A stretch of 64,000 nucleotides of DNA from contig JANQOQ010000008.1 in assembly GCA_028285755.1 (NCBI GenBank), positions 1 to 64,000 on the forward strand, given 5' to 3'. This DNA comes from Puniceicoccaceae bacterium. GTDB taxonomy: Bacteria; Verrucomicrobiota; Verrucomicrobiia; Opitutales; JAFGAQ01. Below the pieces are notes generated by a model. It was not told the DNA's origin and did not search any database. It saw nothing but the letters and a program-made list of their open reading frames with translations. How positions within the stretch are numbered: the stretch's first letter is position 1; every line of letters begins with the position of its first letter. The position numbers were made by a program, and so were the translations under genes. Positions 31,645-48,815 of the stretch are shown one piece after another.

Positions 31645-33519
31645 ATGTTTGCAAAGGTAAGAGGCAGTCTGGTCTTAGGGGTAATGGGTGTCCTCGTTTC
31701 ATTCCATATGCATGCACAGAGTTTCGAGGTAACTGCAAATTTCGAACCTGCAAACATTTCACTCGGGCGCGATGTAGAATACATCATTGAAATATCCAAG
31801 TCGGACCCTGATGATCCCAGTGCGCTGCCGGTTCCGGAACAGGCTCAACTTCCCCCCAGCCCCCATTTTTCAATGGGACGTTTTGAAACTACCCAGCTAA
31901 AAGTTTCCAGTGCCGAGGGAGACCAGCCCGTAGCAGTGCGTATGATATATGAAATTACTCCCAACCAGGTGGGTAGAATAATCATGCCCGCATTTTTCTA
32001 CACCTATGAAGGTCAGCAGCTAACGATTCCTCCTGCATTATTGAATGTGCGCTCACCCCAATTCGATATTCAGGATGAAAGCGTACAGTGGTTATCACTT
32101 AGACTGACTGGAATACCGGAAAATATTTGGGTAGGCCAACGTGTTAAGGCTGATTTGAATCTGCGTATACTGGCAGGGCTGGAAAGCGTGACTTATGGGC
32201 AGCCTGAGCTGATTGGGCACGAATTCTCACTGGATACGCTTTCCCCGGGTCCCACCCAGAAAATGGTGAGTGAAGGCCAATACCGCTACCGCGAATACAC
32301 CTGGCCGCTGACATTTACTCCACTGCTATCCGGTGATTTGGATATTGGCTTCAAAATAGCTGTAAACTTTACGGTGCCGAATGATCGTGTCCGTTTCTTA
32401 CAAGCACTGCGCGCAAGAGATTCCCGTGTGCTTGCAGAGCTATTGTTGGATTCATCGGAGGAATCGCTCACTGTTTTTAGTGATACTGCCGATATGGGAG
32501 TGGAAATGTTGCAGAACTACGAAGGCCAGGGTCAATACTTTGGAGCAATCGGTGACTTTGAAATGGATCTTCTGATAGAAGAGACTGAATGGGCAGTCGG
32601 TGAGCCAGCCAATGTTTCTCTGACTATTACCGGAACAGGCAATTGGGGAAAATTGGCTTCACCTGAACTTACCCTGAATGACCAATGGCGTGTCTTTCCC
32701 GCAAAGGATGAGTTTATCGACCAGGATCTATTGCGATATGATGGAAATCATACTTTCAATTATGTGGTTATTCCTTTGACAGATGATTTGGAGGCTTTTC
32801 CCACTCAGCATTGGGTTCACTTTAATACCGGTCAGGGTGAATACACGGGTTATATCGCAGAACCTCTGGAAATAAGTGTATTAGAATCAGCAACTCCCGT
32901 TGCCCAGACGACTAGTGCCCCCCAGAGCATTCCCACCGTTGATCCGCAAACTGCCATCGTCAGATCGAATGCGGTCGAGTCGGATCTGCGTATCCTATGG
33001 AATACCGGTCATACTTTGAATCTTAACACACCGCTGTTGCTTCGACCCAATATAATTACCCTCAACATTCTGGGGATAATTATATTTAGTGTTCTTGTTT
33101 TTATGAGGATACGCAAAAATCACGCGATGAATAACCCCGCTTATGCTCGCGAAGTGGAGATACGCCGATGGCTCTCCCGTTTCCTAAGTCGCGCAAAACG
33201 GGCAATGAAGGATCAGGATGAAGATGCGTTCTTTGAGTCAGCATTTCTGAGTCTATGTGCGGCCACAGGCTTAAGCCACAATCATCATGTCGAGTCATCC
33301 ACAGTGGAGGATATACGCCAGATCATGGATAGTCTTCCGCTGAATGAAAGTCGTAAGCAGATCATTACCATGTATTTAGACAAATATGAGCTGAAGAAGT
33401 TCTCAGGTCTCCGCGGTGAAGTTCTGGCCCTGGAGTCAGAGTACGCCCGGCTCGCGGTGATTTCAAAGCGCATCTATAACCTCATTCGCAAAGAAACGAA
33501 AAGGCGGGCCCATGCATAA
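31645..33519 (+). CDS. BatD-like exported protein
   Basis: A 624-residue protein resembling BatD of the Bacteroides aerotolerance locus. It has a signal peptide (LVLGVMGVLVSFHMHAQS), repeated beta-rich domains (for example EVTANFEPANISLGRDVEYI and MIYEITPNQVGRIIMPAFFY) and a single membrane segment near residues 470-488 (ITLNILGIIIFSVLVFM), followed by a cytoplasmic part of about 130 residues. It overlaps the next gene by 8 bases. BatA, BatB and MoxR partners are not adjacent: upstream is the divergent FecR gene. Role in envelope stress is inferred from the family. Confidence 0.7.
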   Translation: MFAKVRGSLVLGVMGVLVSFHMHAQSFEVTANFEPANISLGRDVEYIIEISKSDPDDPSALPVPEQAQLPPSPHFSMGRFETTQLKVSSAEGDQPVAVRMIYEITPNQVGRIIMPAFFYTYEGQQLTIPPALLNVRSPQFDIQDESVQWLSLRLTGIPENIWVGQRVKADLNLRILAGLESVTYGQPELIGHEFSLDTLSPGPTQKMVSEGQYRYREYTWPLTFTPLLSGDLDIGFKIAVNFTVPNDRVRFLQALRARDSRVLAELLLDSSEESLTVFSDTADMGVEMLQNYEGQGQYFGAIGDFEMDLLIEETEWAVGEPANVSLTITGTGNWGKLASPELTLNDQWRVFPAKDEFIDQDLLRYDGNHTFNYVVIPLTDDLEAFPTQHWVHFNTGQGEYTGYIAEPLEISVLESATPVAQTTSAPQSIPTVDPQTAIVRSNAVESDLRILWNTGHTLNLNTPLLLRPNIITLNILGIIIFSVLVFMRIRKNHAMNNPAYAREVEIRRWLSRFLSRAKRAMKDQDEDAFFESAFLSLCAATGLSHNHHVESSTVEDIRQIMDSLPLNESRKQIITMYLDKYELKKFSGLRGEVLALESEYARLAVISKRIYNLIRKETKRRAHA

Positions 33520-42951: not shown

Positions 42952-43731
42952 ATGAATATTTTAAGACGACTCGTATCAGTCGCATTCACAGCCGTTTTTC
43001 TAACATTAGGTATCTCCGCAGCAAACGCACAGGAGACCTATGATTACGGAGATGTTGAACAGCTAAAGTATAGCCTGAAATGGGGGCCTTTCAGTGTGGG
43101 CGAAGGTATGTTGACTTCCGGGGAGACCGTGGAAATCAACGGTATACCCTGCTATAAAATCCAGCTCAAGGTATGGACCAATGATTTTGCGGATGTATTT
43201 TATAAAGTGCGAAGCCAGTTCACGTCCTACATTGCCATCGATAGCCGAAGAGTGATTCGTTACGAAGTAAATCAACATGAGGGAGATACGCATCGGGATG
43301 CAACGGTTACGTTTGATTGGCATAACATGACAGCGGTTTATCATCGGGAGGGAGAAGATCCCAAGGAACCGATCGAAATCCTTGAGGATACAACGGATCC
43401 TCTGGCAGTAACTTATAAGTTTCGCACTTTGGGTGATATTGAAGAGCCTAACTACGAGATGCCGGCCAGTGACGGTAAGAAAATGCTGTTGGTAGATGTA
43501 AAGATCCGGGATCGTGAGCCGCTTGAGGTGCGCGCCGGTATGTTTGATGCGATCCGTGCACAGCCGGATACTAAAGATTTGGCCGGCGTTTTTAAGAAAA
43601 GCAAAAAATCAAAAATACAAATGTGGTTTTCGGATGATGCAAAAAAGTATCCCCTACTCATTAAAAGCAAAGTGATTGTGGGATCTTTTATTGCAGAATT
43701 GAAAGAAATTAAGACAAATATGAGCTATTAA
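42952..43731 (+). CDS. DUF3108 exported protein
   Basis: A 259-residue protein with a signal peptide (LVSVAFTAVFLTLGISAANA) and a DUF3108 domain, recognisable from LKYSLKWGPFSVGEGMLTSG and DPLAVTYKFRTL. Predicted periplasmic beta-barrel-like fold; function unknown. The lnt homologue follows after 19 bases, so the two are probably co-transcribed. Confidence 0.85.
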   Translation: MNILRRLVSVAFTAVFLTLGISAANAQETYDYGDVEQLKYSLKWGPFSVGEGMLTSGETVEINGIPCYKIQLKVWTNDFADVFYKVRSQFTSYIAIDSRRVIRYEVNQHEGDTHRDATVTFDWHNMTAVYHREGEDPKEPIEILEDTTDPLAVTYKFRTLGDIEEPNYEMPASDGKKMLLVDVKIRDREPLEVRAGMFDAIRAQPDTKDLAGVFKKSKKSKIQMWFSDDAKKYPLLIKSKVIVGSFIAELKEIKTNMSY

Positions 43732-43750: not shown

Positions 43751-45322
43751 ATGTTTGAATGGTGGAATAGAAATAGTCAGATAACGCTCGTAGTCATACT
43801 TGCTTATGCGGTACTGGGCATATTGAGTTTTCCCGTTTTCTACCAGGGTTATACGGCTTATCTATTTGTAGTTCCACTAATTCTGTGGGCGTTCACAAAA
43901 CCATCAAAAAGGCGATTCCTCACCGCAGCACTCATAGCTGAGTTTCTGCGATGTTTTATCACCATCATATGGCTCCGCCATGTTACCTTGATCGGGACTA
44001 TCCTGGTATGCGTCGCCTTAAGCCTGCTGTTGATACCCTTTTTCCTACGGCTAAGATTTGTTTTTACTGATTACGGTCAGCAATCTCGGTGGGTTCGGTT
44101 AGCCCATTTGTTGAGTCTCCCGGCGATCTGGGTGATCATAGAGTGGTTGCGGATAAAGTCATGGGCGCTCCCCTGGTCTCCATTGGCGCTAAGCCAGACT
44201 CAATACCCTCCCCTCATACAAAATCTGGATACTTTTGGCGTATATGGTATTTCTTTTTTTGTGGTGACCGTAAACATGCTTATTGCGTTATGGATTCGGA
44301 GCGTTTTTCGCAAAGGTTTATCCGGGATATTTGGAAGGGTCGAACTTTGGTTTTTACTACTCATCTGCATGACCTTTACTACAAGTTCACTGCTTAAGTA
44401 TTTCCAAAGTTCAGAAGAAAAACCTTTGTTCAAGGCAGCGATTGTTCAACCGAATCAACCGGCTTACCTTTCCTGGAATCGTGAAAACATGCATGAGACC
44501 CTGAATACGGCCTTCCGCTTATCCGCTGAAGCGAGAGATCTGGATTTTGATATCATGTTTTGGCCGGAGGGTACGCTGCCCTGGGCGGTTATCGGCGAGA
44601 ATAATATAGATGCAGAGGTATCCATGTTGGTTAGAAATGCTATTCGCAGACCTTTGCTGATGGGGAATCATGCATATATAGGGGATCGAATGATCAATGG
44701 TGTGTTTCACTATCAGGCGGATGGTCGCAGACTGGAGCCACACTATGAGATGCAAGTGCTGGTTCCCTTTGGGCAGTATGTTCCCTTTCGGGAGTATTTG
44801 GGTTTCTTGGAAACAGTAGTTCCTTTTGGGGGAGATTTTTCACCGGGTAGTCAGCCTCTCGTTATGCAGGTGGATACAGGCAAGGGCTTAGTCGATATTG
44901 CACCCATAATATGCTATGAAGATGTATTCCCCCACGTATCCAGCGAGGCGGTTAAGCAAGACGTGGATATTTTCTATGTGGCTACTTACAATGTGTGGTA
45001 TGGCAAAGAAGCCGCAGCCTATCAGCATGCAGCCCATTCAATACTAAGGGCAGTCGAAAATCGGCGCCCCTTTATTCGTTGTGGAAGCGGGGGTTGGAGT
45101 GGCTGGATCGATGAAAAAGGCCGAATGCGTGAAGTAGTCGTAGATGATAAAGGTAGCATTTATCATCGGGGAGTGGGTATTGTAACGCCAGTGCAAGCAG
45201 CTCAATACAAGGGCGTTACGACATTCTATGCACGCTTTGGTGACTGGTGGGTCGGTGTTTGCGCCCTATTCCTTTGTATGCAGTTGATAGTTCGCTTAAT
45301 CCAAAGGGATTATGGGAAATAG
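43751..45322 (+). CDS. lnt: Apolipoprotein N-acyltransferase homologue with altered active site
   Basis: A 523-residue protein with multiple N-terminal membrane segments (to about residue 220) and a periplasmic nitrilase domain. Lnt adds a third acyl chain to lipoproteins using the triad Glu-Lys-Cys (E267, K335, C387 in E. coli). Here E273 (FWPEGTLPW) and C388 (ICYEDVF) are present, but the lysine position is M334 and the essential glutamate of LVPFGE is Q342 (MQVLVPFGQYVPF). The annotation as Lnt is therefore by homology; activity may be lost or changed. Its end overlaps the convergent gene by 13 bases. Confidence 0.85.
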   Translation: MFEWWNRNSQITLVVILAYAVLGILSFPVFYQGYTAYLFVVPLILWAFTKPSKRRFLTAALIAEFLRCFITIIWLRHVTLIGTILVCVALSLLLIPFFLRLRFVFTDYGQQSRWVRLAHLLSLPAIWVIIEWLRIKSWALPWSPLALSQTQYPPLIQNLDTFGVYGISFFVVTVNMLIALWIRSVFRKGLSGIFGRVELWFLLLICMTFTTSSLLKYFQSSEEKPLFKAAIVQPNQPAYLSWNRENMHETLNTAFRLSAEARDLDFDIMFWPEGTLPWAVIGENNIDAEVSMLVRNAIRRPLLMGNHAYIGDRMINGVFHYQADGRRLEPHYEMQVLVPFGQYVPFREYLGFLETVVPFGGDFSPGSQPLVMQVDTGKGLVDIAPIICYEDVFPHVSSEAVKQDVDIFYVATYNVWYGKEAAAYQHAAHSILRAVENRRPFIRCGSGGWSGWIDEKGRMREVVVDDKGSIYHRGVGIVTPVQAAQYKGVTTFYARFGDWWVGVCALFLCMQLIVRLIQRDYGK

Positions 45323-46272
45323 GAGATCTGAATGTAATCCAGATAACGTGTATTCGAAGACTCCCATACTGCCTTTATCGTATTCACCCGGTTGGGGCTG
45401 AGTTCCACCTCATACTCAAAGCGGTTATTCGCGACTTGATGACGGGTTTCAAAATCGTTCACCGCCAGTATTGCACTGCCTGTTTCGATGCCCGGTATGT
45501 TTACCTCTAGCCAGACTTTGGGGCTGCGGCTGATCCAATTTCCAGTGGGTGCACGCTCAAGTCGGGGACTTTTTTCAAGATTGGGCAAAACCTCTACAGC
45601 TTTCTGCAAAAACAGATTAACCGTTTTCTCATCAAGCACCTGATTTTTTATTCGGGATACAATTTTAAAGTTATTAGGTCCCCGCCTAAGTCCAAGATTT
45701 ATGATGCTGGATGCTTCATTCTGTGTGATGGGAAGCGGATTATTGAATGAATCATACACGATAAGGCTATGATCATTATGCTGAGGTATTTTTTTAAGCT
45801 TTAGTTGAATATGAGGAATATTCACTGCTGTAGATAAGGTTTCTGATAACTCTAACTCGCCTGTTTCTTCGTTTGTCGTTGCGCCCTCTACCACATATTT
45901 CGCCTGTTTGATTTCAATGTTCGGTAAATAAAAAATACGATAACGTGATCTGCTTATAATTGGGGTTTTAGAATCTACATCTATGAAGTTCTCGCCGGGG
46001 ATGAGCGTTAACTGACTGAAATAACTTTCATCCTGAAGCTGATAACTCTGCGGGTGCTTATTGTTAAAGATCATAACATTGGCACGCGGCTCATCTAAGT
46101 TGATTCGGCAGCTTACATCTGTGCTCGTGGATATATATTCGTCACTATTATTCTGAAAGAGCGGGCCTGAATCATCTGAATAAACAAAGGTAACATCGTT
46201 CCCATTCAATAAATGGCTGCCGAGTAATAAAGCTGGAACTACCAGTTTACTCCATAGATTGGACGAATTCAT
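45310..46272 (-). CDS. Exported protein of unknown function
   Basis: A 320-residue protein with a signal peptide (LVVPALLLGSHLLNGNDV region). No known domain is evident; the sequence is beta-rich and suggests immunoglobulin-like or similar modules. Its start overlaps the end of the upstream gene (46247-47995) by 26 bases, so the two are coupled. With the bactofilin genes they appear to form a four-gene envelope operon. Confidence 0.5.
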   Translation of the reverse strand: MNSSNLWSKLVVPALLLGSHLLNGNDVTFVYSDDSGPLFQNNSDEYISTSTDVSCRINLDEPRANVMIFNNKHPQSYQLQDESYFSQLTLIPGENFIDVDSKTPIISRSRYRIFYLPNIEIKQAKYVVEGATTNEETGELELSETLSTAVNIPHIQLKLKKIPQHNDHSLIVYDSFNNPLPITQNEASSIINLGLRRGPNNFKIVSRIKNQVLDEKTVNLFLQKAVEVLPNLEKSPRLERAPTGNWISRSPKVWLEVNIPGIETGSAILAVNDFETRHQVANNRFEYEVELSPNRVNTIKAVWESSNTRYLDYIQISYFP

Positions 46273-47995
46273 TATCTACTAAAAATGGATTTAATTCAAT
46301 TGGGGTTCCATTGAATGTATACTTTATGGTTAGATCAAACGAGGCTTTTGCGTGTATTTTAAATAATAAATTATTCTTGATGACGACTTCATCCTTTCTA
46401 TTGCGATCAGTGAGCCGGATCTCTATATCTTCGATAAGCATATAATCGTCCTTTAAAACAGGGTTGATTTTAAAGAGTATCGTTTTTTCTGACTGATTGG
46501 CATAGACTTGAAGATGAGCCTGAGTTTCGCCATTTGGACCGGTTAGCGGAAAAAACCTAAATAATGTAACCTGTTCATCATCAGCGGCTTGTAGGCTATT
46601 TGATTCATAGGTATCAATGTCATTGGGATCAAATAGAAGTATAAAAGGTCTTAACGCTGGATTCTCATCATTATCATATACATTAAATTGTATATATCGA
46701 GAATCCGCGCTTTGTGTGTATTTGTGAAACACAGGTTCTGCGGGTAGACCTGAAAATTCGCTGACAGTGCCGTCCCCCCAACTGATTTCGCTTCTAACAA
46801 TAAATCCATTGGGATCAACACTGCCTGAGTCTAGAATACTTACCAGATATTCACTCTCTAACTTTCGAAGTCCTCCCATCTTGGCGATTGCTATAGGTCT
46901 GAGGCGTTTTTCAGGCTCAAAATGGATTTCGTGCCAATTCTGATTTCCATCGACGGCGATAATCTTCTCAGGTTGATAAGCGATTTCCCAGGGAAGCTTG
47001 TAGTCAATCTCTTCATAAACTTGCGTTGATGGATTTAAGAGATAGACCCGGTTATCTGGATGATCCGGTTCGCTAAAATAAGTCTTACTAAAATGAAGGG
47101 TATTTGTAGTTTTTAAATAATGAACATATGGATACTTGTAAGGGTGATTATGAACTCCGTAGGCATTCCATTTTCGTTGTTCAACTAAAACTGAGTTTTC
47201 ATCGTATAAACTTAGAGTATGAGCTCCTGGTTTTGAGAATAGAAGTATCACACTGCCTTCACTTTGTGAGGCACTTGCAATGATATTCTGACCCAGATGA
47301 TATTCTACACCTTGCTTCTTATCTATTCTAAGATATTGAGTATTTAGGGCTTCAACCGATTCTACTGAATCTATAAGTGGCGCATTGCCAATATTTTGTA
47401 AGAAATTCTTTGAAAAATATAGAAGGGCTATTGTACATATTATAATGCTTGATACGATTAGTTTCCGGGTGTTTCGCTGGCTTTTCTTTTGAGCAAGCAA
47501 TTGTTCCAGAATACTTAAAGCCTGAGCCGGGCTAATCATTTCATTGGGGTCATCACTCGCAAGATTCCACAAGATTTGTAACCGCGGGTTTTGACTTTTA
47601 ATACTGCATATTCGATAGAGATTGGGATTATTTTTGGGATTTGGTAACTTGAATTCTTCAAGCGCTGTTTTTTGATGATATCTGAATTTATTCTTGGAAC
47701 TCAGTGCGTTTTCAAAGCGAGTGACATCCTCCCTAAAGTCGTTGATCAAAGATTCATTTAGCTTTTGAGCCAATAGTGCATCATTTGACTTTAGATTGGA
47801 TTCTGAATTTAGAGGGATGCTGTATTCCCAATCCCCTTCATCTATATAGTCGACATTCGGGAAGGTATTCTGAAAAAGATCTGTTAGCAGCGTGCTTTCA
47901 CTTGAATAGGAATACGCTCCTAGCAAAAAGGTCTGTTCCTCTAGGCTGGTCTTGACACGAAAACCCGAATCCTGGTTCTCGATTTGTAAAAGCAT
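46247..47995 (-). CDS. Single-pass membrane protein with PKD-like domain
   Basis: A 582-residue protein not assigned to a named family. About 175 residues lie in the cytoplasm, followed by one membrane segment (KLIVSSIIICTIALLYF, about 178-195) and a long periplasmic part. A PKD-like section is visible (LDSGSVDPNGFIVRSEISWG near 385, then DNDENPALRP). The gene begins 5 bases after the end of the upstream bactofilin gene, which suggests that its cytoplasmic part meets the bactofilin scaffold. Confidence 0.55.
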   Translation of the reverse strand: MLLQIENQDSGFRVKTSLEEQTFLLGAYSYSSESTLLTDLFQNTFPNVDYIDEGDWEYSIPLNSESNLKSNDALLAQKLNESLINDFREDVTRFENALSSKNKFRYHQKTALEEFKLPNPKNNPNLYRICSIKSQNPRLQILWNLASDDPNEMISPAQALSILEQLLAQKKSQRNTRKLIVSSIIICTIALLYFSKNFLQNIGNAPLIDSVESVEALNTQYLRIDKKQGVEYHLGQNIIASASQSEGSVILLFSKPGAHTLSLYDENSVLVEQRKWNAYGVHNHPYKYPYVHYLKTTNTLHFSKTYFSEPDHPDNRVYLLNPSTQVYEEIDYKLPWEIAYQPEKIIAVDGNQNWHEIHFEPEKRLRPIAIAKMGGLRKLESEYLVSILDSGSVDPNGFIVRSEISWGDGTVSEFSGLPAEPVFHKYTQSADSRYIQFNVYDNDENPALRPFILLFDPNDIDTYESNSLQAADDEQVTLFRFFPLTGPNGETQAHLQVYANQSEKTILFKINPVLKDDYMLIEDIEIRLTDRNRKDEVVIKNNLLFKIHAKASFDLTIKYTFNGTPIELNPFLVDNEFVQSME

Positions 47996-48000
47996 AAAGC

Positions 48001-48444
48001 TTACTCGTCTTTATTGCCCTTGCCGGCGTTTTGGCTAGCAGCGGGTTTAGATGAATTATTGGCGGTACGCACGGTGGATTTTCCGCAAAAGTTTGCGCCC
48101 TCTTCGATTGAGATTCTTGCAGAAGTAACGTCTCCCTCTAAAACAGAGGATGCCTTGAGAATGCACTTATCTTCAACGATAATATCCCCATAGACTTTAC
48201 CAAATAGGGTGACCGATTGAGTTTGCACCAAACCTTTGATAGTTGCGTTTTTCCCAATGATGAGGCCGCTTTTGGACTTCACTTCTCCATCTATAAATCC
48301 ATCAAGTTCGAATTCCTGATCAAACTCGAGAGTGCCTTTGATTTTAACATCCTTATGGAGGACATTTTTAGAATTGCCGTTCGATTTAACAAGGGGTTCA
48401 GGATTGGCCATAGTGTCGGTAGTTTGGTTATTGCGATTGAACAT
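48001..48444 (-). CDS. Bactofilin
   Basis: A 147-residue bactofilin, a self-assembling cytoskeletal beta-helix protein. The core repeats are visible: KIKGTLEFDQEFELDGFIDG, SGLIIGKNATIKGLVQ, VTLFGKVYGDIIVEDKC, LKASSVLEGDVTSARI. A polar N-terminus and a lysine/serine-rich C-terminus flank it. A second bactofilin gene lies 20 bases upstream. The pair is followed by two envelope proteins. Confidence 0.9.
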   Translation of the reverse strand: MFNRNNQTTDTMANPEPLVKSNGNSKNVLHKDVKIKGTLEFDQEFELDGFIDGEVKSKSGLIIGKNATIKGLVQTQSVTLFGKVYGDIIVEDKCILKASSVLEGDVTSARISIEEGANFCGKSTVRTANNSSKPAASQNAGKGNKDE

Positions 48445-48464: not shown

Positions 48465-48815
48465 TTAGTTAGAATCATTTTTTATATTTGCGGAGCCGTT
48501 AAATATGGCACCTTCCACTACTCGAAATGTTTTTGCAGTGACATCCCCATTAAGGGTAGATCCTTCTTTCAGCTCACACTTAAGCTCCGAATTGAGATTG
48601 CCGTCAATTTTACCAAATAATGTAATGCTTTGTGCAAAAACCTCGCCTTTGATCTTTGCATTTTCCCCAATAGTCAAATTTCCATTTGTGCGAATTTCTC
48701 CTTCATATTCGCAATCTATAAACAGGTCTTCTCTGGAAAAAAGGGAACCACTGATTTTTACGTCTTCTGATAGCCGATTGCTTACATTCATATTTATCAA
48801 ATAAGAATTTAACAA
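48465..48815 (-). CDS. Bactofilin
   Basis: A 116-residue bactofilin with repeats KISGSLFSREDLFIDCEYEG, LTIGENAKIKGEVFAQSI, TLFGKIDGNLN and LKEGSTLNGDVTAKTF. It is the first gene of the minus-strand bactofilin/envelope group. mnmG ends 52 bases upstream on the same strand. Confidence 0.9.
   Translation of the reverse strand: MLNSYLINMNVSNRLSEDVKISGSLFSREDLFIDCEYEGEIRTNGNLTIGENAKIKGEVFAQSITLFGKIDGNLNSELKCELKEGSTLNGDVTAKTFRVVEGAIFNGSANIKNDSN

Follow-up and report, generated by a model that had tools for sequence, protein, structure and literature searches.

What does an apolipoprotein N-acyltransferase (Lnt) do when its catalytic lysine and the glutamate paired with that lysine have both been replaced? 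The nitrilase superfamily is defined by a triad that includes this lysine, and the question is raised by an open reading frame at positions 43751-45322 on the forward strand of a 64,000-nucleotide stretch of DNA from a Puniceicoccaceae bacterium, referred to here as the window. A preliminary description reported that the encoded protein has M334 and Q342 where E. coli Lnt has K335 and E343, and suggested that it may be inactive, may carry out a different acyl transfer or may depend on a second Lnt elsewhere in the genome.

The reading frame begins with ATG and is open throughout its 523 codons. The protein matched the TIGR00546 (lnt) profile with 215.4 bits against a cut-off of 132.9, covering profile positions 13-394 of 395, and it has the domain order of Lnt, an LNT_N membrane domain followed by a nitrilase domain. 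The 10 distinct sequences of known structure that it matched at E <= 0.001 all bear the name apolipoprotein N-acyltransferase, and the nearest relatives sampled are about 41% identical. The gene order glgP-DUF3108-lnt is present here and in all four of the other genomes of its family, which argues that the gene is the lnt orthologue and not a stray paralogue. On its sequence and its gene order, the protein is a true Lnt orthologue. The features of the locus are as follows.

42952-43731 (+), DUF3108 protein directly upstream of lnt; the neighbor is kept in all 4 other genomes of the family (gene order)
43751-45322 (+), lnt orthologue, 523 aa, the sole recognizable apolipoprotein N-acyltransferase found in the genome (TIGR00546, Pfam)
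43808-44281 (+), LNT_N membrane domain (PF20154), residues 20-177 (Pfam)
44432-45109 (+), CN_hydrolase (nitrilase) domain (PF00795), residues 228-451 (Pfam)
44567-44569 (+), E273, the general base (E. coli E267), kept (alignment)
44744-44779 (+), strand/loop motif YEMQVLVPFGQY; in relatives Y-x-K-x-x-x-V-P-[FY]-G-E (alignment and motif scans)
44750-44752 (+), M334 (ATG) at the site of the catalytic Lys (E. coli K335) (alignments)
44774-44776 (+), Q342 (CAG) at the site of the Glu that pairs with K335 (E. coli E343) (alignments)
44912-44914 (+), codon of C388, the nucleophile Cys, present (alignment)
44912-44920 (+), C388-Y389-E390, the nucleophile and flanking essential residues, kept (alignment)

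Two genes on the reverse strand, 45310-46272 and 46247-47995, converge on lnt, and neither has a Pfam match over cut-off. In two genomes of the family, weak homologues of the first gene product are encoded downstream of lnt, at 26.7 and 27.3% identity across 172 aa. A pair of bactofilin genes (PF04519; 83.2 and 82.2 bits) lies side by side at 48001-48444 and 48465-48815, also on the reverse strand and upstream of two uncharacterized genes.

To place the two replaced residues, the protein was aligned with solved Lnt chains in three alignments, all of which put M334 under the lysine and Q342 under the glutamate of those chains. A MAFFT alignment of 45 rows gave the same result: the column of residue 334 is Lys and that of residue 342 is Glu in all 44 of the other rows. 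These rows comprise 42 sequences from 41 genomes of the same order and two gammaproteobacterial Lnts. The order was sampled with TIGR00546 in 52 genomes, the genome studied here included. The cut-off was exceeded in 42 of them, and 8 of the other 10 had no match at all; matches under the cut-off, probably mostly other nitrilases, were left out of the alignment. The substitutions reported in the preliminary description were thus confirmed, as were its observations that E273 and C388 are present and that the codons at 334 and 342 are unambiguous. Hence the Glu-Lys-Cys triad is incomplete, with Met in the place of Lys, and the invariant glutamate that supports the lysine is a glutamine.

The remainder of the active site is conserved. 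The protein keeps Q233, W242, E273, N316, Y332, V338, G341, P345, C388, Y389, E390, W416 and R433; among these, W242, Y389 and E390 correspond to the essential E. coli residues W237, Y388 and E389, and both essential glutamates of E. coli, E267 and E389, are retained as E273 and E390. Twenty-five columns are invariant in the 42 other rows from the order, and the query keeps 23 of them, breaking exactly those of the lysine and the glutamate. Two random breaks among 25 columns would hit this pair with a chance of 1 in 300, by simple arithmetic. Breaks in two invariant columns also occur in 2 of the 42 other rows. In this alignment, therefore, the number of invariant columns broken is ordinary, but the residues affected are not.

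A misalignment hiding another active-site lysine was rejected, since M334 is anchored by the invariant Y332 two residues before it and by V338-P339-G341 after it. None of the alignments, including that with related Lnts proposed in the preliminary description, placed another lysine of the protein in the site. Among the aligned Lnts, the query alone has a basic residue at the positions of R295, R326 and H331. R295 sits in an insertion; the nearest query-specific basic residues, R326, R327 and H331, are none of them clearly placed to replace the lysine, and H331 should, on an alternating strand, point away from the site.

The accessible parts of the literature on E. coli Lnt assign the two residues a joint role. 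Glu343, 2.8 Å from the amine of Lys335, strengthens the positive charge with which this lysine stabilizes the oxyanion, and E343 is described as invariant in Lnt (PMC5500888). The two residues form a salt bridge in one position of the Lnt arm (PMC6971011), and formation of the acyl-enzyme involves E267, K335 and E343 (PMC8048626). K335A Lnt was inactive (PMC5500888) and gave no product in vitro in a second study (PMC6828757), and complementation failed with alanine in place of a triad residue or of E343 (PMC5500890). The mutants that we found in the accessible text of these papers are alanine substitutions, with no K335M, E343Q or double mutant among them. Since K335 and E343 form one functional unit, M334 and Q342 can be regarded in functional terms as a single event, the loss of a charge pair. 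An AlphaFold2 model built from a three-row alignment had a mean pLDDT of 39.9, and the active-site geometry considered here therefore rests on the published E. coli structures.

One rival explanation is that the protein still functions as an Lnt, its oxyanion hole carrying no charge and relying instead on backbone amides and perhaps on a water molecule that Q342 holds; the acyl donor may then differ, or the reaction may be slower. Backbone amides also contribute to the oxyanion hole of the E. coli enzyme, in the part of the structural report that was accessible (PMC5500888), and some activity could remain through them. The alanine mutants described above argue against such an enzyme: K335A was inactive in vitro in both studies, and E343A did not complement. 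Neither residue is missing from any other sampled Lnt, and R295, R326 and H331 offer no new basic residue at a clearly suitable place. We regard this explanation as rather unlikely, though a genuine contender.

The rarity of the substitutions was also assessed by motif scans of DNA within one phylum, in which the Met/Gln change is known from one genome only. A pattern allowing Glu or Gln at the second site matched in 294 of the 372 genomes sampled from the order, and the Gln-only pattern in one of the 372, which was this genome. The first 98 Glu/Gln matches listed comprised 97 with Lys/Glu and one, from this genome, with Met/Gln. A codon with a middle T at the lysine site (Met, Val, Leu, Ile or Phe) was found in one of 387 genomes of the phylum, again this one; the 387-genome and 372-genome samples overlap. 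These patterns miss Lnts that are spelled differently, and 78 of the 372 genomes had no match. A pattern scan for relatives in genome_contigs, which perhaps left out records very near the window, returned only two gammaproteobacterial Lnts, and a scan for a relative in viral_contigs returned no match.

The scans and the alignment also showed that one genome of the order (G039) carries two Lnt genes (L015 and L047), both with Lys and Glu, and that another (G190) has two motif matches, so that lnt duplication seems, from these sequences, to occur within the order. In another genus of the family, Lnt evolves fast (L039 in G004 and L040 in G002; branches of 2.47 and 1.83 in a quick tree) and conserved positions have changed, examples being W142G and Q425F.

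A change known from one genome, and from its assembly alone, might be an error of sequencing or assembly, and each codon could have arisen by a single transversion (AAG to ATG and GAG to CAG). For that, errors would have had to arise twice independently, in codons whose first bases are 24 apart, and to fall exactly in the two partners of a salt bridge in a gene that has neither a frame shift nor a stop. We therefore consider an error improbable.

Since the preliminary description had raised dependence on a second Lnt, the whole assembly (4.25 Mb in 15 contigs, 97.16% complete) was searched with PF20154, TIGR00546 and PF00795. It contains one LNT_N domain, one TIGR00546 match over the cut-off and three CN_hydrolases, and no second Lnt was found in it. 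Of the other two CN_hydrolases, one is an NAD synthetase, judged from its translation, and one is a nitrilase-like protein (L001:820-2220). Lit (PF07314) gave no match in the genome at E <= 0.001, and the Lactococcus lactis control was positive. The proposed dependence on a second Lnt is thus unsupported within this assembly.

The lipoproteins might still be N-acylated by another enzyme, either the L001 protein or one that the profiles do not recognize. The L001 product, a CN_hydrolase of 466 aa, has a hydrophobic N-terminal stretch, and inspection by eye picked out E, K and C motifs. However, Pfam gives no LNT_N domain, about 225 N-terminal residues having no Pfam match; TIGR00546 scores 35.7 bits against the cut-off of 132.9; and the best NCBIfam matches are to nitrilases and amidases, all under their cut-offs. 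Together with the negative search for Lit, these results make a replacement enzyme very improbable.

The remainder of the lipoprotein pathway was recognizable in the genome. The Lgt and LspA profiles were both matched over their cut-offs, and the catalytic motifs of the two enzymes, as named in the accessible text of PMC7240156, were recognized by eye in the unaligned translations. A Pal-like protein (84.3 bits, under the cut-off of 125.35) has the lipobox LVSC followed by Gly. No lipobox was found in the 64,000 nucleotides under strict rules, and a looser scan gave one weak candidate at 33512. TIGR02212 (the lolCE family) has eight matches in the genome, the best with 262 bits, under the cut-off of 362.45. 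Two of the eight loci (L057 and L058) were inspected: the best permease stands alone beside a LolD-like ATPase, identified by eye, and the second match (L058) appears by eye to belong to a MacAB-type exporter. This context would make loss of N-acylation tolerable in this genome, although it does not prove a loss.

If lnt were dispensable in this lineage through LolF-type sorting, the gene might be an early pseudogene that is still open, its function having been lost recently. Helicobacter pylori, which has LolF, can do without lnt, according to the accessible part of PMC7240156, and in the present genome a solitary LolC/E-family permease adjoins a LolD-like ATPase. Among columns conserved in at least 95% of rows, the query breaks seven, the most of the 43 rows; three rows follow with six breaks each, two of these rows being of the query's family. 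The unique changes of the query also slightly outnumber those of its sister Lnt (L037) in 6 of 6 whole-protein tests and 5 of 6 nitrilase-domain tests. Nevertheless, relative-rate tests against this sister were not significant with any of six outgroups, the p values being 0.059-0.581 for the whole protein and 0.189-0.891 for the nitrilase domain. The query branch in the quick tree is 1.28, compared with a sister stem of 1.19 plus 0.02-0.05. These tests average over a long branch, so that a very recent loss would look alike, but the rates and the kept residues argue against a long decay of the gene. Early decay is also opposed by the open frame and by the concentration of both invariant-column breaks in one functional pair among 25 columns, and we think it distinctly unlikely. 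The conservation of E273, C388 and 23 of the 25 invariant residues, the rate that is not significantly raised, the lack of another Lnt in the genome and the existence of a lipoprotein precursor are equally points in favor of the charge-free working enzyme considered above.

Taken together, with a little more than even confidence, the sequence evidence favors the reading that this Lnt, though still folded, has lost canonical N-acylation or performs it very weakly, and that the lipoproteins are diacylated. It is the most likely reading, its main rival being the active enzyme with a charge-free oxyanion hole, followed by early decay, sequence error and a replacement enzyme. The inactivity or different acyl transfer suggested in the preliminary description were accordingly the right alternatives, strengthened by the findings that the residues are one functional unit and that the change is in no other sampled Lnt; its third suggestion, a second Lnt, found no support in the assembly searched.

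Under the favored loss of canonical activity, the orthologue would still be folded and would have been under normal constraint until at least recently. The lost Lys-Glu pair would have supplied the positive charge for oxyanion stabilization, and without the lysine the acyl-enzyme thioester would form very poorly or not at all. Poor or absent thioester formation would probably leave the lipoproteins diacylated, Lgt and LspA being present, and these may be passed on by a LolF-like/LolD transporter tolerant of diacyl substrates. Met and Gln are uncharged and near Lys and Glu in size. The second substitution may have relieved the unpaired charge left by the first, and the replacement of both partners by residues that are uncharged and similar in size suggests selection for a folded protein once the first change had occurred. 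The protein may now bind phospholipid or lipoprotein without acyl transfer, or transfer acyl groups slowly. Only tentatively do we propose a natural, selected Lnt pseudoenzyme or charge-free variant, in a lineage that has either given up lipoprotein N-acylation or carries it out without the nitrilase-superfamily lysine, and that retains the protein to bind lipoproteins or phospholipids or to pass them on.

A naturally occurring Lnt orthologue without Lys and Glu, the only Lnt found in its genome, lends itself to testing the need for the charge pair and whether Lnt does anything besides catalysis, and the case would show whether the organism lives with diacyl lipoproteins.

Comparison with known systems sets the protein apart. 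The solved Lnt chains (5n6m, 5vrg and others), the first two of which we take to be those of P. aeruginosa and E. coli, share its domain order, profile score and E/C/Y/E and cavity residues, but keep the oxyanion-stabilizing Lys and Glu where it has Met and Gln. In the literature searched, mostly without subscription papers, we found no natural Lnt in which K335 or E343 is missing. The nearest case there is the second mycobacterial Lnt homologue (BCG_2279c / Rv2262c-2261c), likewise a natural homologue without one triad residue; in it Cys is replaced by Ser and the same genomes hold a homologue with an intact triad, (accessible text of PMC3850990), whereas the genome studied here has lost Lys and Glu from the only Lnt found in it. 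AatD, the glycine N-acyltransferase of enteroaggregative E. coli, is an Lnt-like protein used for another acyl transfer, but unlike the query it retains all four residues, E217, K278, E286 and C325, as far as the available part of PMC7943197 describes it, and hence gives no precedent for losing them. In the diderms that can dispense with lnt, such as H. pylori, a single LolC/E-like LolF has been linked to the sorting of diacyl lipoproteins (accessible parts of PMC7240156 and PMC8048626), and one such permease with a LolD-like ATPase was seen here; H. pylori Lnt, however, retains the Glu-Lys-Cys triad (PMC7240156, same part), unlike the Lnt described here.
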